Below, piece by piece: positions 51,455 to 59,104 of a DNA stretch of 64,000 bases. Made by a program: the position numbers and the translations under genes. The stretch covers positions 1-64,000 of IMG/VR virus record IMGVR_UViG_3300032214_000801; one strand, given 5' to 3'. Numbering within the stretch: the stretch's first letter is position 1; the number at the start of each line of letters is the position of its first letter. The notes below the pieces were generated by a model. That model was not told the DNA's origin. It ran no database searches and worked only from the letters and a program-made list of their open reading frames with translations. The stretch comes from a virus.

Positions 51455-51772
51455 TCAGTTAAGGCGCATTCCAGAGAAGAAAGGAATCGTGCCGAATTGA
51501 TTAGAACTAAAGAACCACTGTCCTGCTTTCTGAAACACACGCTCACCATCAATTCCGTGAGCGAAAAGAATAGCGTTCAGGCGCGACTTTGTGGTGTTTG
51601 TTTGATGCTTACCGTCGAACAGTTGTACAAAGTCCTCACCGATAGTTGCGATCTGATTACCATGCAGAAACACACGGGAGATCTTACCTTCGGAGACAAC
51701 TTCAGTGTTGCCACTCTTCCAATTGAGAGCTTCGTTGATAGCTTCGTTCATCAGGGATTCGATCTTGCGCAT
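51455..51772 (-). CDS. Conserved small protein with SGNTEV/LHGN motifs (105 aa)
   Basis: It begins with a helical MRKIESLMNEAINEALNW part, then SGNTEVVSEGKISRVFLHGNQIA, a strand, and TTKSRLNAILFAHGIDGERVFQK leading to WFFSSNQ. Recurrent in T4-like cyanophages and also seen in some cyanobacteria, as far as I recall. Likely a small alpha/beta protein; function unknown. It has the best-formed upstream hairpin-promoter module. The long plus-strand frame opposite it is a shadow. Confidence 0.8.
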   Translation of the reverse strand: MRKIESLMNEAINEALNWKSGNTEVVSEGKISRVFLHGNQIATIGEDFVQLFDGKHQTNTTKSRLNAILFAHGIDGERVFQKAGQWFFSSNQFGTIPFFSGMRLN

Positions 51773-51807: not shown

Positions 51808-51865
51808 AATATACACGATTCAGATCCCTGTGCTCATTTACTGTGCCACTTATACTTGTGGCACA
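51808..51865 (-). promoter_or_regulatory. Hairpin-promoter module 1
   Basis: Minus strand: a 24-nt inverted repeat TGTGCCAC-N8-GTGGCACA (51842-51865, perfect 8-bp arms), then TGAGCA (-35, 51831-51836), 17-nt spacer, TATATT (-10, 51808-51813), about 36 nt before the 105-aa gene. No T run follows the repeat. Confidence 0.75.
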
Positions 51866-51911
51866 TGGTATCAACAATCAGCGCAACTCACAGCACGTTC
51901 GTTATACTAAC

Positions 51912-52085
51912 TCACCATCTATCAGGTGTACTTAGATCCTCAACATATGCTGTCACCTTCTCTGCAGGTTCTAGCTGAAAGACTTTCTCCCAATCTAAGT
52001 TGTGAGGATCGAAGTCTCCCAAAACATCAAGTTCCAGAGTGATCCTATACTTTTGACGCATTGCCTGATGATACGCAACTGACAT
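51912..52085 (-). CDS. Small conserved protein (57 aa)
   Basis: ATG at 52085, stop TGA at 51912. It begins MSVAYHQAMRQKYRITLELD, then VLGDFDPHNLDWEKVFQLEPAEKV and ends STPDRW. The pattern strand, DF-(D/N)-PH, DW-x-x-(L/V)-F-x-L-x-PAE is common in cyanophage small proteins. It has its own near-consensus promoter upstream and abuts the origin-like gap. Confidence 0.78.
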   Translation of the reverse strand: MSVAYHQAMRQKYRITLELDVLGDFDPHNLDWEKVFQLEPAEKVTAYVEDLSTPDRW

Positions 52086-52112
52086 AAGTTTGCTCCGTTG
52101 TGTTGTGTGGAT

Positions 52113-52141
52113 ACTCTAGGATACTGTGGTGTGAATGTCAA
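52113..52141 (-). promoter_or_regulatory. Sigma70-type promoter for the 57-aa gene
   Basis: Minus strand TTGACA (52136-52141), 17-nt spacer, TAGAGT (52113-52118), ending 28 nt before the start codon. It faces left, back to back with the plus-strand promoter at 52215-52243. Confidence 0.7.
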
Positions 52142-52214
52142 GTTCTTGGTGGGTATTTATGCGGGGTTGGGGTGGTTTTTTGCGGGATCTGTGAGGATTT
52201 TGTGACTCTGGGGG

Positions 52215-52243
52215 TTGACAATTTGCGTTCCTTAGTGTATGCT
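52215..52243 (+). promoter_or_regulatory. Plus-strand sigma70 promoter
   Basis: TTGACA (52215-52220), 17-nt spacer, TATGCT (52238-52243). A perfect -35 and 5 of 6 in the -10. It is the only convincing plus-strand promoter I found, and no plus-strand gene follows it. The transcript would start near 52250, at the first iteron. Confidence 0.75.
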
Positions 52244-52257
52244 CGCTAAGATAACAA

Positions 52258-52372
52258 GACTCTGGTGCATTTAAAAGACTCTGGTGCATTTAAAAGACTC
52301 TGGCACATTTAAAAGACTCTCGAAGGTTTATAAGGTATTAAACACATTTAAAAGACTCTGGTACATTTAAAA
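52258..52372. repeat. 19-bp iteron array
   Basis: Unit GACTCTGGTGCATTTAAAA. Copies start at 52258 and 52277 (identical), 52296 (two changes: GGCACA), and 52354 (one change: GGTACA). A half copy at 52315 (GACTCT) is followed by a divergent stretch. A further GACATTAAACACC at 52373 pairs with an ATTAAACAC inside the divergent unit. Spacing is exactly 19 bp for the first three. Confidence 0.9.
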
Positions 52373-52494
52373 GACATTAAACACCTTATTGAGAATAACA
52401 ATCAATAAGAGAAACAAATCACTAATATATGTTTTTAATTACATTTATTAATCGATTTAATATCATTTTATCGTTATATTGTATTAAAAACAAT

Positions 52495-52519
52495 AAAAAA
52501 GAGAGGTTTTATCCTCTCT
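52495..52519 (-). terminator. Intrinsic terminator after the 57-aa gene at 52531
   Basis: Minus-strand hairpin AGAGAGG-ATAAAA-CCTCTCT (7-bp stem) running into six Ts. It stops leftward transcription from the small genes before the origin-like region. Confidence 0.88.
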
Positions 52520-52530
52520 CTTAGTATTCA

Positions 52531-52704
52531 TCAGAACGTTGGAACTTTCACATCATCTGAATACTTATCAGCATATAATCCTGCTAATTGTACTGATGAC
52601 ATTGGCACTGGTGTTTCATTATACTTGTATAAACGGTGATTGTCATAAGTGAACCATTCATACTCTTTTGATTGTAGATTTGATGCAATGCAGTATGTTG
52701 TCAT
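52531..52704 (-). CDS. Small conserved protein (57 aa)
   Basis: ATG at 52704, stop TGA at 52531. It begins MTTYCIASNLQSKEYEWFTY and continues DNHRLYKYNETPVPMS, ending KVPTF. Rich in Tyr; probably a small beta-rich protein. The start overlaps the stop of the next gene upstream (ATGA). Followed by the terminator at 52495-52519. Function unknown. Confidence 0.75.
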   Translation of the reverse strand: MTTYCIASNLQSKEYEWFTYDNHRLYKYNETPVPMSSVQLAGLYADKYSDDVKVPTF

Positions 52705-52874
52705 TGTTGTTCAGAGTGAAGAATGTCTAGCATATGTTGGTAATACTGATCTGCTTCAACCTCACACTGATGAGATTCATTAGGATCTTCTACCACATAT
52801 TGTTTCATCTCCAGAGAGTTAATTACATCCTTGAGAAGATCAGTCAACTCTTCAATCTTCATTGCATCAGTCAT
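52701..52874 (-). CDS. Small acidic helical protein (57 aa)
   Basis: ATG at 52874, stop TGA at 52701. Sequence pattern MTDAMKIEELTDLLKDVINS, then EMKQYVVEDPNESHQCEVEAD and YYQHMLDILHSEQQ. Likely helical hairpin. It overlaps both neighbours by four bases (ATGA), typical of translational coupling. No known family. Confidence 0.75.
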   Translation of the reverse strand: MTDAMKIEELTDLLKDVINSLEMKQYVVEDPNESHQCEVEADQYYQHMLDILHSEQQ

Positions 52875-52999
52875 GCAAGTTCAGCAGGTGATCCACAAGA
52901 ACGATAGAATTCTACCATTCGTTTTGCTTCATCTAATGTAGAGAATGTTTGTGTTCTCCACTGTTGTTGGTAAGGAGTGAAGTAGCGAATGGTGAACAT
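52871..52999 (-). CDS. Small conserved protein (42 aa)
   Basis: ATG at 52999, stop TGA at 52871. Sequence MFTIRYFTPYQQQWRTQTFS then TLDEAKRMVEFYRSCGSPAE. The pattern (beta-hairpin ending in Trp, then a helix with the MVEFYRSCG motif) recurs in cyanophage small genes. Function unknown. It is the first gene of a coupled trio running left to 52531. Confidence 0.78.
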   Translation of the reverse strand: MFTIRYFTPYQQQWRTQTFSTLDEAKRMVEFYRSCGSPAELA

Positions 53000-53034
53000 T
53001 GTTTTTTGTTTGGTGAGTTTAATGAATTGTGAAA

Positions 53035-53322
53035 TCAGACAGTTTCAATATCACCGTGCTTCAGGGCACGATTAAACTCATATCCCCAAGATGTTGCATT
53101 GCGAGCTTCATCATCATTCAGAAGATCATTCCAGCGCATAGCAGCACCATCATCCTCAAAACTATAACGATAAACCTTCTCGGGATTGTTGTTAAAAATT
53201 ACCAGCAAATCACTGGTGTTCTCATTGTTTGTCACCACAGCAAGTTTAGCAATTGCGCTGGACTTTACACGATAACCAAGAGAAGAAGTGGGAGAAGTGA
53301 AAGGGTGAAGAGTTGCAGTCAT
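53035..53322 (-). CDS. KTSC-like domain protein (95 aa)
   Basis: Residues 18-60 follow the KTSC domain pattern: VKSSAIAKLAV, a strand, LLVIFNNN, then KVYRYSFED. KTSC domains are small beta-rich modules, often next to RNA-related enzymes, of unclear role. The C-terminal part has a helix with MRWNDLLNDDEARNA and SWGYEFNRALKHG. Its own module-2 type promoter does not precede it; it starts after the gap at 53323-53350, where module 2 ends. Function unknown. Confidence 0.72.
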   Translation of the reverse strand: MTATLHPFTSPTSSLGYRVKSSAIAKLAVVTNNENTSDLLVIFNNNPEKVYRYSFEDDGAAMRWNDLLNDDEARNATSWGYEFNRALKHGDIETV

Positions 53323-53350
53323 TTGTTTGGTGTCGTTTCTTGACTCTTTA

Positions 53351-53408
53351 AGAATACAGGTTTTTGAATGCTTTGGAGATTTAGTGTGCCACTTGTACTT
53401 GTGTCACA
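53351..53408 (-). promoter_or_regulatory. Hairpin-promoter module 2
   Basis: Minus strand: 24-nt inverted repeat TGTGACAC-N8-GTGGCACA (53385-53408, one mismatch), lying in the last codons of the 61-aa gene, then a TATTCT -10 (53351-53356). The expected -35 (53374-53379) reads TCTCCA and is poor. It is followed by an AGTCAA leader and the KTSC gene start at 53322. Confidence 0.65.
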
Positions 53409-53566
53409 TATTGTTGTTCACGGCGCTTTAATTCTTTGATAAGAAGATCAAGATACTCATCACCTTCTTTGTTGTTAAGCAATGCTGCATCTGCAATCTC
53501 AAATGAAATATCAGATCCAGAAAGTTTGGTGAGTTCTTGTTCTGAATAGAATCCGTAATCAGTCAT
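53381..53566 (-). CDS. Small protein (61 aa)
   Basis: ATG at 53566 is preferred; a longer TTG-initiated frame to 53596 overlaps the previous gene more. The sequence begins MTDYGFYSEQELTKLSGSDI, then a helix ADAALLNNKEGDEYLDLLIKELKRRE. The last codons (VTQVQVAH) are encoded by the inverted repeat of module 2, so the C-terminus may be shaped by that DNA element. Function unknown. Confidence 0.72.
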   Translation of the reverse strand: MTDYGFYSEQELTKLSGSDISFEIADAALLNNKEGDEYLDLLIKELKRREQQYVTQVQVAH

Positions 53567-53567
53567 T

Positions 53568-53747
53568 TTAGTAAGCAATTTGTTGAAGTTTAGCAAGAAG
53601 TTCGGACGTGAACTTTTCTACAATTGGTTCCTCCATATCATCTCCACGATATAATTCATCCTCATATTGATAAACAAGTTCTTCATCAATTGTCATCAGA
53701 TTCTCAAGCAATTGTTCAATGCTCCGAATCAATTGTGTTTGTTCCAT
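53568..53747 (-). CDS. Small acidic helical protein (59 aa)
   Basis: ATG at 53747, one base after the stop of the upstream gene. It begins MEQTQLIRSIEQLLENLMTI, then an acidic EELVYQYEDELYRGDDME segment and a C-terminal helix ending QQIAY. Longer starts in the same frame use TTG and overlap the neighbour. Function unknown. Confidence 0.7.
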   Translation of the reverse strand: MEQTQLIRSIEQLLENLMTIDEELVYQYEDELYRGDDMEEPIVEKFTSELLAKLQQIAY

Positions 53748-53748
53748 A

Positions 53749-53961
53749 TCAACCACCACCATACACATGATCAACCAAACCAGCAGGATGATTCACACCT
53801 TCGATAACAGTGAACTTTGCATACTTATCAAACTCTTCAGCATAATACTCGCAGAACTGTGCGATAAAGAACTCACGGCACTGTTCTTTAGATTCAGCAG
53901 CAATCACAACCATGCCACTGGTATAATCAGTCAGAACGTTGTTGATGATGTAGAGATTCAC
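53749..53961 (-). CDS. Conserved small protein with GTG start (70 aa)
   Basis: I choose the GTG at 53961, which overlaps the upstream stop as GTGA; a TTG at 53976 would overlap by 19 nt. The protein begins with NLYIINNVLTDYTSGMVVIAA, has a helix ESKEQCREFFIAQFCEYY and ends VNHPAGLVDHVYGGG. The beta-strand, SGMVVIAA and YGGG pattern recurs in cyanophages. Function unknown. Confidence 0.72.
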   Translation of the reverse strand: MNLYIINNVLTDYTSGMVVIAAESKEQCREFFIAQFCEYYAEEFDKYAKFTVIEGVNHPAGLVDHVYGGG

Positions 53962-54146
53962 AGTTCGATGCTCCAATCAGAATCAGAATTGAGATTAACC
54001 CAGAAAAAGTTCTTTCCGTTCAGTGATCGTAGAAAGACACAATCACCTTTGCTCTGTTCAATAATGCACTCAGATTCTGATTCCATTAGGTTACAGAATC
54101 TGTTCTTTGCTTTCTTAGACTTTGGAGAAACAAAAGCAGTGTTCAT
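53958..54146 (-). CDS. Small basic protein (62 aa)
   Basis: ATG at 54146. It begins MNTAFVSPKSKKAKNRFCNL, then ESECIIEQSKGDCVFLRSLNG and a strand FFWVNLNSDSDW. Lys-rich N-terminus and a beta-rich C-terminal half. It overlaps the downstream gene by GTGA and lies three bases after the gene upstream. Function unknown. Confidence 0.7.
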   Translation of the reverse strand: MNTAFVSPKSKKAKNRFCNLMESESECIIEQSKGDCVFLRSLNGKNFFWVNLNSDSDWSIEL

Positions 54147-54149
54147 GAC

Positions 54150-54386
54150 TCAAAAGTGTGCTTCGGAGTAATCAAGTTGATCAGTGTACTTTGCGATAGC
54201 ATCGTAACACTTTGCTTTCATTTGATCATCGTTGGTTTTAATGTAACCAGCGAGAAACTCAAAAGAATACTTAATGCGCTGCTCAGGAGTGATCTTGGCG
54301 AGTTGCTGTTGCTTACGCTCTTGGTAGGAGTTGTAAGCAAACATTTCACGATCTTCCACGCTCATGTTGTGAAATTGGCGTTGCAT
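54150..54386 (-). CDS. Small protein of unknown function (78 aa)
   Basis: The open frame extends upstream to 54479, but that part runs through the promoter of module 3, so I take the ATG at 54386. The protein begins MQRQFHNMSVEDREMFAYNS, continues with YQERKQQQLAKITPEQRI and KYSFEFLAGYIKTNDDQMK, and is wholly helical. Possibly a tetratricopeptide-like or regulator helix bundle; no family recognised. Confidence 0.7.
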   Translation of the reverse strand: MQRQFHNMSVEDREMFAYNSYQERKQQQLAKITPEQRIKYSFEFLAGYIKTNDDQMKAKCYDAIAKYTDQLDYSEAHF

Positions 54387-54412
54387 GTGCTTGGGATCTC
54401 TTGAACTTCTTA

Positions 54413-54470
54413 AGAATACACGATCTGGAGTGCTGTGCTCTTTTAGTGTGCCACTTCTACATCTGTCACA
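54413..54470 (-). promoter_or_regulatory. Hairpin-promoter module 3
   Basis: Minus strand: inverted repeat TGTGACAG-N8-GTGGCACA (54447-54470, 24 nt), 5 nt after the previous stop; AGAGCA -35 (54436-54441), 17-nt spacer, TATTCT -10 (54413-54418), AAGAAGTTCAAG leader. The ATG used is 27 nt downstream. Confidence 0.75.
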
Positions 54471-54475
54471 TCGTA

Positions 54476-54655
54476 TCATTCTTCCAACAACTCTGGATTA
54501 TATTCTTTCACCTCTTCAATCAGTTCCTCATCAGTGTATGGCATAAGATTGTCTTTCAAAGTGTCATAAACGAAACACTCCATTGTCTTCATATCCATCC
54601 CATCTAGGATTTGCTGAGCATAATCAGCGATGAGTTGTTCGCGGTTGAATGTCAT
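54476..54655 (-). CDS. Small conserved acidic protein (59 aa)
   Basis: The ATG at 54655 starts MTFNREQLIADYAQQILDGM, then ECFVYDTLKDNLMPYTDEEL and ends YNPELLEE. An in-frame ATG at 54685 overlaps the upstream stop (ATGA) and would add 10 residues; conservation of the (M)-x-F-x-REQLI start favours 54655. The YDTL, YTDEEL and PELLEE pattern recurs in T4-like cyanophages. Function unknown. Confidence 0.78.
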   Translation of the reverse strand: MTFNREQLIADYAQQILDGMDMKTMECFVYDTLKDNLMPYTDEELIEEVKEYNPELLEE

Positions 54656-54681
54656 TTTGCTTGTGGGATTAGGAAGGGAAA

Positions 54682-54909
54682 TCATTTCTTGAGAAAGTTT
54701 TTGAAGAAATCAAGTATCAGAATCACACCAAAGACTTGCAGATAGGTGACACTCAAACCAATCAGAAAGTGCAGAATTGCATACAGCACGCCTGCAACGA
54801 TTGCAGTTGCAATCAGACTACCAATCAGTTTGCCAAATGCTTCACCAATCAAACCTGCTACTTCCACAATTTGTTTTTGTTTTTCGGGAGAGATTGTCAT
54901 TGATTTCAT
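54682..54909 (-). CDS. Small membrane protein (75 aa)
   Basis: A helical charged N-terminus (SPEKQKQIVEVAGLIGEAFG) is followed by two likely membrane segments, about residues 27-47 (IGSLIATAIVAGVLYAILHF) and 50-68 (GLSVTYLQVFGVILILDFF), and a basic KNFLKK tail. Host inner or thylakoid membrane is expected. It overlaps the next upstream gene by ATGA. A second ATG at 54900 is also possible. Function unknown; the amphipathic first helix and two spans recall holin-like or membrane-altering proteins, with no proof. Confidence 0.72.
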   Translation of the reverse strand: MKSMTISPEKQKQIVEVAGLIGEAFGKLIGSLIATAIVAGVLYAILHFLIGLSVTYLQVFGVILILDFFKNFLKK

Positions 54910-55040
54910 TTGCAGTAGTTGGTGTTAATTTGGCAGAAACTGTCTGCTTGCTGTTCTTGATACTCATTCACGGTTGCATATGCTGCATTACCGATGCGAA
55001 GTCCAAGAGCAAGAGTAACAATCAAGAATGCAATTCGCAT
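54906..55040 (-). CDS. Small secreted or membrane-anchored protein (44 aa)
   Basis: ATG at 55040, stop TGA at 54906. It begins MRIAFLIVTLALGLRIGNAA, a signal-peptide-like segment with an NAAYA cleavage site, then YATVNEYQEQQADSFCQ and a short tail with a second Cys. It would be exported or anchored in the membrane. Overlaps both neighbours by ATGA. Function unknown. Confidence 0.7.
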   Translation of the reverse strand: MRIAFLIVTLALGLRIGNAAYATVNEYQEQQADSFCQINTNYCK

Positions 55041-55186
55041 CAGACTTCATCCCTCATTTCAGTGAGTTTTTCAAGAATTGCATAGAGATCTTCACCAATG
55101 GTTGCTGTCATTGCACAGATGTCACACATCTCAAGAACTGCCATAAGTGCATCGAGTTCTTCAAATGTAAGAGTAGTTTTAGTCAT
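55040..55186 (-). CDS. Small helical protein (48 aa)
   Basis: ATG at 55186, stop TGA at 55040. Sequence begins MTKTTLTFEELDALMAVLEM, then CDICAMTATIGEDLYAILEK and ends MRDEV. Acidic, with a C-D-I-C pair. Overlaps both neighbours (ATGA, TGATG). Function unknown. Confidence 0.7.
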   Translation of the reverse strand: MTKTTLTFEELDALMAVLEMCDICAMTATIGEDLYAILEKLTEMRDEV

Positions 55187-55434
55187 CAAACTGCACCTTG
55201 CATAATGTTGTACTCTTGCACCAGATCAATGTTATCACCCGTGATCAGGTAATCCATTGCGAGACGCTCATCAATTTCACGCTGTGCATCTTTCTTAGAA
55301 AGACATTTGCGGGAGATTGTATCAACACCCTTCCAAGATAGAACCTTGAGAGTGTAATCAGAACAATCCTCAATAGGATAGAAACCTACCAGCATTGTAC
55401 CGTCTTTGGACTGGAGAGTAGGAAACTCGATCAT
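55186..55434 (-). CDS. Small protein (82 aa)
   Basis: ATG at 55434; an upstream extension of the frame to 55518 would run through module 4. It begins MIEFPTLQSKDGTMLVGFYP, then YTLKVLSWKGVDTISRKC, a helix KKDAQREIDERL and a C-terminal segment ending NIMQGAV. Basic and mixed alpha/beta. Function unknown. Confidence 0.72.
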   Translation of the reverse strand: MIEFPTLQSKDGTMLVGFYPIEDCSDYTLKVLSWKGVDTISRKCLSKKDAQREIDERLAMDYLITGDNIDLVQEYNIMQGAV

Positions 55435-55459
55435 TGGGGGAAATCCCTTGAACTTCTTT

Positions 55460-55517
55460 AGAATACACGATTTTGGAGCAGGAAACCAGAGAGTGTGCCA
55501 GAGATCCAACTGGCACA
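55460..55517 (-). promoter_or_regulatory. Hairpin-promoter module 4
   Basis: Minus strand: perfect inverted repeat TGTGCCAG-N8-CTGGCACA (55494-55517), 17 nt after the previous stop; TATTCT -10 (55460-55465) at the usual distance; the -35 position reads TGGTTT, a poor match. AAGAAGTTCAAG leader. ATG 25 nt downstream. Confidence 0.7.
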
Positions 55518-55534
55518 CACCTTCTTAGTTTATA

Positions 55535-55987
55535 TCAAGCAGCATACAAGTATCCACCTGCCCAATCACAATTCTCAAAAACATATTCACGATCTTTGAT
55601 CAATCGCAGATCATAACGTACACCCTTTGCAGGAGACTTCCAGGATGCAGATTTATACATTTCACCAGTCTGCTTGTCAATGAAGCAGTGAACAGAACGC
55701 GAAGAACCACCATCAATCATCACAACTTTGTGATATTTTTTGCCAGTTTCAATCACATAATCAATGTCACACTTGCCAGATTTGAGTTCATCAATCTTCA
55801 TAGCGTGATATGTTGCAGAAGAATCACTATCAGCAAGTGTAAATGAACGCTGATGCCCACGAATAGAATACTGGACAAAATTGTGCTTCAGTGCTTCAAT
55901 CAGCATCTGAGTGTACTTTGCAACATTATCAGCGATTTGCTGTTTTGCTTGTTGCTGAGCAGGAAAATCAACGAAAGCAGTAGTCAT
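55535..55987 (-). CDS. Conserved cyanophage protein (150 aa)
   Basis: After a Gln/Ala-rich N-terminal helix the conserved part runs YHKVVMIDGG, SRSVHCFIDKQTGEMYKSASWKSPAKGVRYDLR (residues 95-128), then ENCDWAGGYLYAA. This strongly patterned C-terminal half is familiar from T4-like cyanophages, with the SVHxFVDKxTGxxYK, SWKSP and DWAGGYLY blocks. Function unknown. It is one of the larger unknowns here and has its own module-5 promoter. Confidence 0.82.
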   Translation of the reverse strand: MTTAFVDFPAQQQAKQQIADNVAKYTQMLIEALKHNFVQYSIRGHQRSFTLADSDSSATYHAMKIDELKSGKCDIDYVIETGKKYHKVVMIDGGSSRSVHCFIDKQTGEMYKSASWKSPAKGVRYDLRLIKDREYVFENCDWAGGYLYAA

Positions 55988-56012
55988 TTGCGTGAATTGC
56001 TTTGACTTTTTA

Positions 56013-56070
56013 AGAATACATCATTTTGAGCACCGTGCTCATTTACTGTGACAGTTCTACAGGTGGCACA
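56013..56070 (-). promoter_or_regulatory. Hairpin-promoter module 5
   Basis: Minus strand: inverted repeat TGTGCCAC-N8-CTGTCACA (56047-56070, one mismatch), 15 nt after the previous stop; TGAGCA -35 (56036-56041), 17-nt spacer, TATTCT -10 (56013-56018), AGTCAAAG leader. ATG about 26 nt downstream. The -35 lies in the perfect palindrome GAGCACGGTGCTC. Confidence 0.8.
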
Positions 56071-56085
56071 TGATGTAAAGCAAAA

Positions 56086-56391
56086 TTAGGATTTACGAGT
56101 TCCAAAGTACCACAGAATACCAATTATGATTGCAGCAGGTATGACATAATACCACCAAGTTACAACTGCAGCAAACAAAATCACAATACCAACTAAAAGT
56201 GCGCTTCCATCTGAACTTTCACTGCTGGATGAGTTGCTGCTTCCACGAACCTCGCGCAAGTTGCTAATTTGCTCTGCACCGTAGATTCTTTTTAGTTGTT
56301 CTTTTGCACCGTTCAGTGTATTTGATTGTACTTCAAGATCTTGATAACCACTTGAAGATCCCAACCAACACTTTGCCCGCCAAGTTGCCAT
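56086..56391 (-). CDS. Membrane protein with soluble N-terminal domain (101 aa)
   Basis: Residues 1-48 (MATWRAKCWLGSSSGYQDLE, then a helix TLNGAKEQLKRIYG and EQISNLREV) form a small conserved domain often seen attached to membrane or secreted phage proteins. A Ser-rich linker, residues 51-62, is followed by two close membrane segments, about 64-79 and 82-96, and the C-terminus GTRKS is basic. The likely topology is a cytoplasmic N-terminal domain on a hairpin anchor. Function unknown. Confidence 0.75.
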   Translation of the reverse strand: MATWRAKCWLGSSSGYQDLEVQSNTLNGAKEQLKRIYGAEQISNLREVRGSSNSSSSESSDGSALLVGIVILFAAVVTWWYYVIPAAIIIGILWYFGTRKS

Positions 56392-56425
56392 GATGTTTAA
56401 TTACAGTTGCATGTGGTAGTGTAGA

Positions 56426-56701
56426 TCACCAAGTTCCACGCTGAACGTGAATCTTACGAATCTCAGTGTAAAGAAACTGTTTCAATTTCTTGTCTTCAGT
56501 GTTATCAAAAGCGTAATGAAGTCGTGCCAGATACTCATCAGGTGTGGCACATTTGATAGTTTCTTTGTTACTCATTCCAATCTCATTAAGTGTAGAACCT
56601 GCAGAAACCTTATTCCTGCCGAAATTACCAGAAACCCTACCTTCTGTGCGAAGTTTAGGTTTAATCTTGGAGAGGTTAGATGCACTGAATTCATACTTCA
56701 T
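56426..56701 (-). CDS. Small basic protein (91 aa)
   Basis: ATG at 56701, overlapping the upstream stop by four bases. Begins MKYEFSASNLSKIKPKLRTE, then GRVSGNFGRNKVSAGSTLNE and a helical half with PDEYLARLHYAFDNTEDKKLK. Basic in the first half. No family recognised. Overlap ATGA with the 53-aa gene. Confidence 0.72.
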   Translation of the reverse strand: MKYEFSASNLSKIKPKLRTEGRVSGNFGRNKVSAGSTLNEIGMSNKETIKCATPDEYLARLHYAFDNTEDKKLKQFLYTEIRKIHVQRGTW

Positions 56702-56859
56702 TTGATATTCAGATAAGGTTGATTGTAAATCATGTGATCAAGAATTATGCCAATCTTCAGGCGATAAGTCTCATCATAGTTCTTGGAACATTCTTCATAT
56801 GCCTCGTAGAGTTTAGTATAAAGAGTGTCCCAGTGTTGTTGACTGATAGTGTTAGTCAT
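56698..56859 (-). CDS. Small helical protein (53 aa)
   Basis: ATG at 56859, stop TGA at 56698. Begins MTNTISQQHWDTLYTKLYEA, then YEECSKNYDETYRLKIGI and ends YLNIK. Helical, Tyr-rich. First gene downstream of module 6; function unknown. Confidence 0.72.
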   Translation of the reverse strand: MTNTISQQHWDTLYTKLYEAYEECSKNYDETYRLKIGIILDHMIYNQPYLNIK

Positions 56860-56882
56860 GCGTGGTTTGACTCAACAAAGAC

Positions 56883-56943
56883 AGTATAAGGGTGCTGTGG
56901 GCGATTCTGGAGCGTCTGGTGGACACCTAGAGAAGTGTCACCA
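56883..56943 (-). promoter_or_regulatory. Hairpin-promoter module 6 (divergent)
   Basis: Minus strand: a hairpin TGGTGACAC-N8-GTGTCCACCA (56917-56943, one bulge) that contains the stop codon of the 78-aa gene, then a TATACT -10 (56883-56888) with no clear -35, and a TTGAGTCAAAC leader. Similar layout but less regular than modules 1, 3, 5 and 7. Confidence 0.5.
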
Positions 56944-57174
56944 CAAGTCAGATTCAATCACTTGAGAGAACACAACTCCAATACTCTTGCAGAATTGTTC
57001 TGCAATCTCTTCAAGTGTAACACTACGATCATCTTCCAATTCATCACCATCCACGCAAAACTCTACCATTTCAAAACCATTGGGAATCCAAGAAGTAGAA
57101 TCAGTGGGGAGAAAGAACTCTACACCAACTTCAACGAAAGTAGGATTAGTGGTGGACTGAATGAAGGAAGTCAT
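56938..57174 (-). CDS. Small acidic protein (78 aa)
   Basis: Begins MTSFIQSTTNPTFVEVGVEF, then LPTDSTSWIPNGFEMVEFCVDGDE and a helix with VTLEEIAEQFCKSIGVVF, ending SDLW. Clearly acidic; mixed strands then helix. The stop is inside the module-6 hairpin. Function unknown. Confidence 0.73.
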   Translation of the reverse strand: MTSFIQSTTNPTFVEVGVEFFLPTDSTSWIPNGFEMVEFCVDGDELEDDRSVTLEEIAEQFCKSIGVVFSQVIESDLW

Positions 57175-57200
57175 TTGGTGTTGTTTGTCTCAACAGAACT

Positions 57201-57258
57201 ACAATACACCAATCAGAGCGCGGTGCTCATACCTTGTGACAGTTAATCAAATGTCACT
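57201..57258 (-). promoter_or_regulatory. Hairpin-promoter module 7
   Basis: Minus strand: inverted repeat AGTGACA-N10-TGTCACA (57235-57258, 24 nt) spanning the stop codon of the 156-aa gene; TGAGCA -35 (57224-57229), 17-nt spacer, TATTGT -10 (57201-57206), GTTGAGACAAAC leader, ATG about 27 nt downstream. Confidence 0.75.
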
Positions 57259-57717
57259 GTTGCTATTATGAGCAAGTTTATTTGCTCTTTTCTGCTGTGC
57301 GCGATAATGTGTTGTCATAGCATCAGATCTTGCTTGTGCAGTATCACGATCTGCAACTGTTTTTGCAGTTTTGCGAATCTTATTTGCTCTTTGTCTATCT
57401 TTAGCACTTTGAGACTGACTTAAACGATCTGCCTTGTTAAGTGATTTTTCTTCGCCAGTTTTTCCTGAATACTTAAAATTACCAGCATCACGGGCAAATG
57501 GAACTTTTGCTTCAGCGATTGACATAAACTCTTCAAAAGTTCTCTGTCTTGGATTGTAGTATGGATTCACATCCGATTTGTATTGTGCGCCACCAACATT
57601 CTTGCCAAGGTGCTTCTCTTGTCTTCTCTTCTTCTCAAGTTCATACTGTTTCTTTGCACTTCCTGGTTTAGGTACAGGTTTGCCAGTGATTCCAATTACA
57701 GTTTGATCTTTTGCCAT
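57247..57717 (-). CDS. Basic late protein with a T4-like capsid-targeting motif (156 aa)
   Basis: Lys/Arg/Gln-rich and probably disordered. At residues 60-70 it has TFEEFMSIAEA. This resembles the T4 internal-protein capsid-targeting sequence (TYQEFIAEA) and contains an I-x-E site for the gp21 protease (cut after E69). The C-terminal half (NKADRLSQSQSAKDRQRANKIRK region, AQQKRANKLAHN) would bind DNA. An AATAAATA late promoter lies 21 nt upstream, although the gene sits among early-type genes. I infer packaging with the DNA inside the head. The targeting motif is internal, unlike in T4. Confidence 0.72.
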   Translation of the reverse strand: MAKDQTVIGITGKPVPKPGSAKKQYELEKKRRQEKHLGKNVGGAQYKSDVNPYYNPRQRTFEEFMSIAEAKVPFARDAGNFKYSGKTGEEKSLNKADRLSQSQSAKDRQRANKIRKTAKTVADRDTAQARSDAMTTHYRAQQKRANKLAHNSNSDI

Positions 57718-57737
57718 TTTACAAACTCTTTTTTGAG

Positions 57738-57766
57738 TATTTATTAAAAAACCCCCTTGCGGGGGT
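57738..57766 (-). terminator. Terminator of the DUF6267-type gene overlapping a late promoter
   Basis: Minus-strand hairpin CCCCC-GCAA-GGGGG (57752-57765, one further A/T pair outside) followed by six Ts (57746-57751). The same T run leads into AATAAATA (57738-57745), a late-promoter variant for the 156-aa gene. So an early transcript would end exactly where a late one begins. Confidence 0.85.
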
Positions 57767-57772
57767 GGAGAA

Positions 57773-58669
57773 TCACCAGGATTTGGTGAGATTGAAATTA
57801 TTGTATGAGAACTCTTCCCTATTCACGATCTTATAACTTCCAAACTCATTGTGCATTACAAATCCTTCATGATCTGCAATTTTTCCATCAATCTGACATG
57901 TAATATCAGTATCGGATTCAATATAGAAGAACATATCCATCTTGATAGACTCTACCAACTTCCACAATCGCATGAGGTTGATGTCAACATCACAATTTTC
58001 TGCAATTTCATGCTCGTCCACCTCCTTACCCTCGCGGATGTAAGAATTGATGACTTTTTTGAGTTCCTTTGCTTGTTTATCATTCACGAAGGTGCAAAGT
58101 GTACTCATTTGACGCGCAAACTTGCAGAAATCTACAATATCATCACGATGAGGACAGATCTCTGCTTCTGGTTGCACAAACTTACAATATTTTGTGCTTT
58201 GCAGTTTCTTCATCAATGGAGCAGCAACCATGTTGCGCAGATCATCATCACCATAGTAAAAAGTATGTGGTGCAATGATGATGTTTTGGCGAATCACCTC
58301 ATCAAACTGGTAAGTGATCGTGTTGGGGCAATAAGTATCATCACCGCCAACACCGATAAAATCACCTTGAATGACACCATTGATGCGAGGTAGATTATCA
58401 AAGCAAGTATGCAGAATGTCTGCAACTTTACCTTCATGGTTTGCATCAATTTCTTCATGAGAATGATTGATCTTAATTTTGATTTTGTTGAAGACAGATT
58501 TAGTGCCTACAAACCATTTTCCATTTGCAGGATTAGTACCCCAAACAATAGCAGGAGCACCATCAATTTTCACACTGACATTAGAATCTGCACAAAACCA
58601 ATCAAGAACTGAAAGATCACCAGTCAGCACTAGATCTTCAGGATGGTTCAAGTGAAGGTTTTTAGTCAT
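57773..58669 (-). CDS. DUF6267-type protein with nucleotidyltransferase (ligase-like) motifs
   Basis: 298 residues from the ATG at 58669 (an upstream TTG in frame is less likely). Residues 32-42 read VKIDGAPAIVW; K-x-DG at 34-37 is motif I of the ATP-dependent ligase and capping family, with Lys34 as the possible adenylated residue. QGDFIG at 101-106 resembles motif III, EGFV at 268-271 motif IV, and YKIV with Lys280 motif V. The pattern FVGTKS-x-FNK in between is shared by cyanophage DUF6267 proteins. The order and spacing suggest a covalent nucleotidyltransferase, but activity is unproven. A terminator follows the gene. Confidence 0.82.
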   Translation of the reverse strand: MTKNLHLNHPEDLVLTGDLSVLDWFCADSNVSVKIDGAPAIVWGTNPANGKWFVGTKSVFNKIKIKINHSHEEIDANHEGKVADILHTCFDNLPRINGVIQGDFIGVGGDDTYCPNTITYQFDEVIRQNIIIAPHTFYYGDDDLRNMVAAPLMKKLQSTKYCKFVQPEAEICPHRDDIVDFCKFARQMSTLCTFVNDKQAKELKKVINSYIREGKEVDEHEIAENCDVDINLMRLWKLVESIKMDMFFYIESDTDITCQIDGKIADHEGFVMHNEFGSYKIVNREEFSYNNFNLTKSW

Positions 58670-58671
58670 TA

Positions 58672-58881
58672 TCAAGGAGTGATTTCGTTTGCTTTGTCGT
58701 ATGCTGCGCGAGAACCTACAAAAACTTGTTTTGTATCGTAGAAGTAACGAACTCGCTCACGACGGGCAGCAATAAGAATATCATATTGCTCCTGTTGACT
58801 GTTAGTGAACTTGAAATCTTGCTTACGCCAAGCATCTTTCAGTTCGTTGAGATGAGGCAGAACGTTTACAGTTTCAGACAT
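58672..58881 (-). CDS. Small conserved protein (69 aa)
   Basis: ATG at 58881; an upstream TTG in the same frame is unlikely. Begins MSETVNVLPHLNELKDAWRK, then a helix with YDILIAARRERVRYFYDTKQ and ends VFVGSRAAYDKANEITP. The RRERVxYFYD and VFVGS pattern is familiar from cyanophages. Lies 2 nt from the DUF6267-type gene. Function unknown. Confidence 0.75.
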   Translation of the reverse strand: MSETVNVLPHLNELKDAWRKQDFKFTNSQQEQYDILIAARRERVRYFYDTKQVFVGSRAAYDKANEITP

Positions 58882-58883
58882 GA

Positions 58884-59021
58884 TCAATAATCGTAGTTAG
58901 AGTTCAAATAGTTGTTGAAAGATTTTGAATCATCTTCCTCATCAAAGAGTCCTTCATTCATCTCTTCGACAAAATCAAAGGAAGAAAACTCTTCAACCTG
59001 AACGTCATCAAAATGATCCAT
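58884..59021 (-). CDS. Small very acidic protein (45 aa)
   Basis: ATG at 59021, stop TGA at 58884. Begins MDHFDDVQVEEFSSFDFVEE, then GLFDEEDDSKSFNNYL. More than a third of the residues are Asp or Glu, and it has regular Phe. It could mimic DNA or act as a protein inhibitor, but nothing in the sequence proves this. First gene after module 8. Confidence 0.7.
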   Translation of the reverse strand: MDHFDDVQVEEFSSFDFVEEMNEGLFDEEDDSKSFNNYLNSNYDY

Positions 59022-59046
59022 GGGTGTTCCTCAACTGAACAAATGT

Positions 59047-59104
59047 AGTGTAGACGATTTTGAAGGGAAATCAAGAATGCTGTGCCACTATTGCAACTGG
59101 CACA
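59047..59104 (-). promoter_or_regulatory. Hairpin-promoter module 8
   Basis: Minus strand: inverted repeat TGTGCCAG-N8-GTGGCACA (59081-59104, one mismatch) spanning the stop codon of the 67-aa gene; TTGATT -35 (59069-59074), 16-nt spacer, TACACT -10 (59047-59052). Confidence 0.65.

Follow-up and report, generated by a model that had tools for sequence, protein, structure and literature searches.

A novel element that controls early genes and is conserved in T4-like cyanophages was reportedly described by Doron et al. in 2016 from the phages Syn9 and P-TIM40. Cyanomyoviruses lack alt, modA, motA, and asiA, and their control of early and middle genes is unclear (PMC2984593). Compact promoter early stem-loop (PeSL) cassettes are known from T4-like phages (Arbiol 2010, Comeau 2014), and their density in the cyanophage S-PM2 was judged low (PMC4503421). 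Here, we analyzed a 64,000-nucleotide stretch of viral DNA (the window), which represents positions 1 to 64,000 of the 70,269-base IMG/VR record IMGVR_UViG_3300032214_000801. A 24-bp inverted repeat recurs on its minus strand at gene boundaries of a small-gene cluster, each time at a set distance from a promoter. Judged from sequence, this repeat is probably an operator for a dimeric or tetrameric protein at a sigma70-type promoter with a weak -35 element, and its likeliest role would be activation.

The inverted repeat and its promoters

The inverted repeat TGTGMCA-N10-TGKCACA is present at all seven sites named in the initial annotation, exactly at six of them and with one mismatch at 57235. 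These seven matches at no more than one mismatch compare with 0.12 ± 0.36 expected from dinucleotide shuffles, and 0 of 100 shuffles reached seven. Allowing three mismatches added matches only at chance level; thus, the repeat set is sharply defined. The half-sites had been described as 8 to 10 nt apart, but the spacer is exactly 10 nt in every copy in the window. A looser eighth copy, previously placed near 56917, does exist but lies at 56942-56919 (GGTGACA-CTTCTCTAGG-TGTCCAC), and its TGTCCAC half-site recurs in phage Syn9. An additional one-mismatch site occurs at 64446 of the record, beyond the window.

At 7/7 sites, the -10 hexamer follows the end of the repeat after a gap of exactly 28 nt (30 nt at the looser site), and predicted transcripts start ~17 to 29 nt before the next start codon; both features link the repeat to the downstream gene's promoter. 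Of the sigma70-like promoter that had been proposed to follow each repeat, the -10 box is borne out at its fixed distance, but the -35 hexamer is weak and variable. If the -10 hexamer is taken to occupy about -12 to -7, the dyad covers about -64 to -41 in the 28-nt class and -66 to -43 in the 30-nt class, which places it just upstream of the -35 element with its center near -52 to -55. The repeat had also been said to fall on or just after a stop codon. Overlap is indeed common, as would follow from the tight packing of the genes, but it is no rule: the stop codon may lie within the repeat, just after it, just before it, or 15 to 46 nt before it. The features are as follows.

51842 to 51865, minus strand: repeat TGTGCCA-N10-TGGCACA, pattern match, folding at -12.9 kcal/mol
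51808 to 51813, minus strand: -10 box TATATT, 28 nt after the repeat, serving the open reading frame (ORF) at 51455-51772
53385 to 53408, minus strand: repeat TGTGACA-N10-TGGCACA, pattern match, with an A-G mismatch across the dyad
53351 to 53356, minus strand: -10 box TATTCT, 28 nt after the repeat, serving the ORF at 53035-53322
54447 to 54470, minus strand: repeat TGTGACA-N10-TGGCACA, pattern match, mismatched, folding at -2.5 kcal/mol
54413 to 54418, minus strand: -10 box TATTCT, 28 nt after the repeat; likely start ATG 54386, ORF end 54150
55494 to 55517, minus strand: repeat TGTGCCA-N10-TGGCACA, pattern match, folding at -12.9 kcal/mol
55460 to 55465, minus strand: -10 box TATTCT, 28 nt after the repeat; likely start ATG 55434
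56047 to 56070, minus strand: repeat TGTGCCA-N10-TGTCACA, pattern match, with a C-T mismatch, folding at -1.2 kcal/mol
56013 to 56018, minus strand: -10 box TATTCT, 28 nt after the repeat, serving the ORF at 55535-55987
56919 to 56942, minus strand: degenerate repeat GGTGACA-N10-TGTCCAC (the looser site), with a Syn9-type proximal half-site
56883 to 56888, minus strand: -10 box TATACT, 30 nt after the looser repeat; likely ATG 56859, ORF of ~53 amino acids
57235 to 57258, minus strand: repeat AGTGACA-N10-TGTCACA, pattern match with one mismatch
57201 to 57206, minus strand: -10 box TATTGT, 28 nt after the repeat, serving the ORF at 56938-57174
59081 to 59104, minus strand: repeat TGTGCCA-N10-TGGCACA, pattern match
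59047 to 59052, minus strand: -10-like box TACACT, 28 nt after the repeat; likely ATG 59021, ORF of ~45 amino acids

A phrog_15469 match that starts at residue 36 of an over-long ORF is consistent with the later ATG at 54386. At several sites, the -35 hexamer TGAGCA is overlapped by another short palindrome, TGAGCAC-N-GTGCTCA (e.g., at 56012-56045 of the window); this palindrome is also common elsewhere in the 28-nt class and could be the vestige of a hairpin or an additional binding element. Many -10 boxes are followed by a leader of about AAGAGTCAAAGG or GTTCAAGG, which is kept in this phage, Syn9, and IMG/VR relatives; leaders in other phages read CATACCAAA or AAGTGGTCAAG.

Related cyanophages, their hosts, and the binding protein

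The initial annotation had pointed to related cyanophages as the place to look for the repeat, and there it is found at boundaries between stop codons and promoters. Across IMG/VR, more than 117 stretches contain the complete pattern, including the 28-nt gap and TATWCT, where base composition alone is estimated to give well under ten. When spacers of 0 to 20 nt were compared in ~1.15 Mb of sequence, the loci of which were partly picked by the repeat-promoter pattern itself, 325 places had a spacer of 10, 3 had a spacer of 11, and at most 2 had any other length; in the same sample, -10 boxes were concentrated at 28, 29, and 30 nt past the repeat. The 80 loci selected by gp6, and thus regardless of the motif, contained 7 sites, of which 7/7 had a spacer of 10 and 7/7 had a loose TANNNT at 28 to 29 nt.

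The use of the repeat varies among phages. At least one match with no more than one mismatch was present in 13 of 18 cyanophage records, some of which had only one or two. Whole-genome scans returned many sites in ACG-2014f, P-SSM2, S-CRM01, B23, S-SRM01, and S-SKS1, few in S-PM2 and Syn9 (two exact sites in the latter), and, at up to one mismatch, zero in S-SM2, SynMITS9220M01, S-CREM1, and S-B05. Variant motifs sought in phages without sites were not convincing in S-SM2 or SynMITS9220M01 and were weak in S-B05; more degenerate variants occur in S-PM2 and Syn9. When k-mers were scanned without supervision, with TATNNT as the sole anchor, TGTGAC at -54, GGCACA at -36, and TAGGCA at -23 emerged de novo in ACG-2014f (p values reaching 7e-23), as did this motif in P-SSM2, whereas the repeat-less S-SM2, S-CREM1, and SynMITS9220M01 showed clear enrichment of TTGACA-17-TATNNT instead. 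A generic search for palindromes by offset was too noisy to use.

Two individual loci are worth recording. The ACG-2014f genome (KJ019103, 171717-171740) has an exact repeat with a -10 box at 28 nt, ~0.2 kb upstream of psbA; therefore, the module is not restricted to the small-gene cluster. S-CRM01 (HQ615693, 127-154 kb) has several repeat promoters followed by a common GCTAGCTAAGTGGTCAAGAG leader, apparently near transfer-RNA-like sequence.

Host genomes essentially lack the motif, which makes a phage-encoded protein the likelier binder. The genome of Synechococcus WH7803 has zero sites at up to one mismatch, and 251 related host-family genomes together have 9 exact sites, roughly as many as chance would give; just 2 of these have a -10 box at 28 to 30 nt, and both are unplaced as to origin. 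A host-encoded regulator, or a host regulon site such as that of NtcA or a CRP-like protein, was rejected on these counts, and the binding protein is probably encoded by the phage. No clear regulator emerges from comparison of gene content: only an HNH endonuclease family was present in all five of the strongest carriers and in 0/4 genomes with few or no motifs, and a strict have-not comparison adds a MazE/AbrB-like protein. At a search threshold of E <= 1e-6, this small protein (54 to 90 amino acids) was found in 10/13 motif-bearing and 1/5 motif-lacking records (one-sided p ~0.05, kinship ignored), with Pfam scores below the curated cut-off. The window's record, outside the window at 68431-68928 on the minus strand, encodes a larger, 165-amino-acid protein at whose end a MazE/AbrB-like domain scores slightly below the Pfam cut-off. 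The small protein was not detected in S-CRM01 or B23, which have 11 to 12 sites each, and this undercuts it; the MazE/AbrB-like protein is a weak candidate for the putative operator-binding protein.

DNA operator or RNA hairpin

The repeat is not an RNA hairpin, because it lacks covariation, some copies fold weakly, its halves are asymmetric, and it tracks the downstream start rather than the upstream stop. Covariation was assessed in 236 unique repeats that have a downstream promoter. Pairs 5-20 (complementary in 56%; 133 observed versus 130 expected, z 0.6), 8-17 (39%; 92 versus 101, z -1.3), and 9-16 (53%; 124 versus 140, z -3.3) show no excess of pairing, and pair 10-15 is mildly over-paired (115 versus 98, z 2.9). 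Where a site has two mismatches, they lie at different positions in 44 cases and compensate each other in 2. The distal half holds 105 mismatches against 54 for its proximal counterpart, a twofold skew that is unlike a stem. The copies at 54447 and 56047 barely fold (-2.5 and -1.2 kcal/mol). Predicted start sites in ACG-2014f lie a median of 18 nt before the next start codon, with an interquartile range of 4 nt, while the offset of the repeat from the upstream stop ranges from -171 to +64, with an interquartile range of 13 nt.

These results alter how the constancy of the repeat is read. Its constant length had been taken as a sign of selection on structure, but pairing at the variable positions is not conserved, and a constant length fits a dimeric DNA-binding protein. 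The statement that no ordinary terminator T run follows holds for most copies, since an automatic scan for a GC-rich stem plus T run flagged none of the window copies except a poor-tailed match at 55494. In several relatives, the interval between the repeat and the -10 box does contain a GC-rich hairpin, in some cases with a T run after it (an ACG-2014f example is GGGGGGTTGGCAAACCCCCTTTTTT); under a strict rule, such an interval hairpin occurs at 31/236 sites and a T run at 5. An operator, a terminator, and a promoter can thus share ~80 bp between two genes. Three roles had been offered for the repeat, of which the protein operator is supported, and the RNA-processing site and the messenger RNA (mRNA) 3' end are not, because pairing is unconserved, some copies barely fold, and the element follows the downstream promoter and start codon.

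The mechanism that we propose would have a dimeric (or tetrameric) protein bind each repeat as a DNA operator locked 28 to 30 bp upstream of the -10 element of a host-sigma70-type promoter with a weak -35 element. The better-conserved half-site would face the -35 element, and the bound protein would help host RNA polymerase start the small genes of the hypervariable cluster. The rigid spacing to the -10 box, the stronger conservation of the half next to the promoter, and the weak -35 element would all fit an activator that touches sigma or the alpha C-terminal domain. We infer protein binding, activation rather than repression, early timing, and a phage-encoded protein from these patterns. Several observations weigh against this proposal. 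Promoters of the TTGACA type are also present in repeat-bearing phages. The -35 elements of repeat-bearing promoters are somewhat better than shuffled sequence, so these promoters may not strictly need an activator. Many copies become perfect hairpins once transcribed; hence, a secondary role in RNA is possible. Furthermore, a repressor could also sit at a fixed position.

Repression is the main rival to activation. A phage repressor bound at these operators would silence the small genes later, with the fixed distance arising from contact between repressor and polymerase or simply from compactness. Repressors typically bind palindromic operators, and the spread of many copies across one gene cluster would suit coordinated shut-off; yet the repeat ends upstream of the -35 element and would not itself block the promoter, the distance to the -10 box is kept within 2 bp, and a better-conserved polymerase-side half-site suits activator contact more. 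On balance, we consider repression unlikely. It is quite improbable that the boundaries are PeSL-like gene-shuffling cassettes, in which short identical promoter boundaries would be kept for recombination among small genes. Similar boundaries do recur in a hypervariable cluster, and PeSLs are described as promoter/stem-loop motifs mediating shuffling in T4-like phages (PMC4503421). However, the inner 10 nt and the downstream sequence differ much between copies, leaving little identity to recombine, and conservation falls on the columns that make up a binding site; gene shuffling may be a by-product rather than the function. RNA hairpins that would serve the upstream gene as weak terminators, processing sites, or mRNA 3' ends are disfavored and have very little likelihood. 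The strong folds at 51842 and 55494, the many copies on or near stop codons, and the GC-rich hairpins of relatives speak for them, but compensatory pairing is absent, the spacer is held at exactly 10, the halves are unequally conserved, and position follows the downstream start.

Source locus and comparison with known systems

The record encodes T4-type gp6 and gp25 baseplate genes, and comparison of gp6 identifies cultured Synechococcus phages as relatives (e.g., Bellamy and S-SM2). The cluster of small minus-strand genes adjoins gp25. A tandem array of ~6 copies of the 19-bp unit AAGACTCTGGNACATTTAA (window 52256-52375) sits in a gap upstream of a promoter-like site, TTGACA-17-TAGAGT. Ordinary intrinsic terminators occur on the minus strand at 57751-57766, just 3' of a DUF6267 gene (57773-58675), and at 52497-52522, following the last small gene that precedes the tandem array. 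Rfam returned no RNA family match anywhere in the window.

It is possible, though we propose it only tentatively, that an undescribed phage-encoded and perhaps virion-delivered activator binds the operator and steers unmodified host RNA polymerase to dozens of promoters. If true, such an activator would give T4-like cyanophages a means of takeover that differs from the Alt/MotA/AsiA route of T4. T4 middle promoters, which use a MotA box and AsiA, resemble the present arrangement in that a host sigma70 promoter has its -35 element replaced or assisted by a phage element. They differ in that the element here is a 24-bp dyad near -53 rather than a box at about -30 and in that MotA and AsiA homologues are reported absent from cyanomyoviruses (PMC2984593). 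Class I/II activator sites of CRP and NtcA likewise place a dyad at a fixed position upstream of sigma70 promoters, and TGTG..CACA resembles the arms of the CRP site; however, the arms are spaced as TGTG-N16-CACA here and as TGTGA-N6-TCACA for CRP, and the repeat lacks the GTA-N8-TAC core of NtcA sites.

PeSL cassettes are the nearest general concept (PMC4503421). They are described as a compact early promoter and a stem-loop at small-gene boundaries in hyperplastic regions; our locus resembles them in promoter architecture, and in some relatives of this phage the module includes a hairpin, sometimes with a T run. In contrast to PeSLs, the dyad here is conserved in the manner of a binding site and lies upstream of the -35 element, and the window copies are without a T-tailed terminator.

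The precise motif (24-bp dyad, spacer of 10, and 28 to 30 nt to the -10 box) makes the question of early and middle control testable, permits promoter prediction across hundreds of genomes, and provides repeat DNA usable as bait for the regulator. Small-gene promoters of Syn9 have degenerate copies of the repeat with a TGTCCAC proximal half and, at several, a GAGTCAAAGG leader. The present repeat is probably the Syn9 early-gene element that Doron et al. reportedly described. If the two are the same, what is new here is the exact grammar of the element, the arguments that favor a protein site over a hairpin, the near-absence of the element in hosts, and its varied use among phages.

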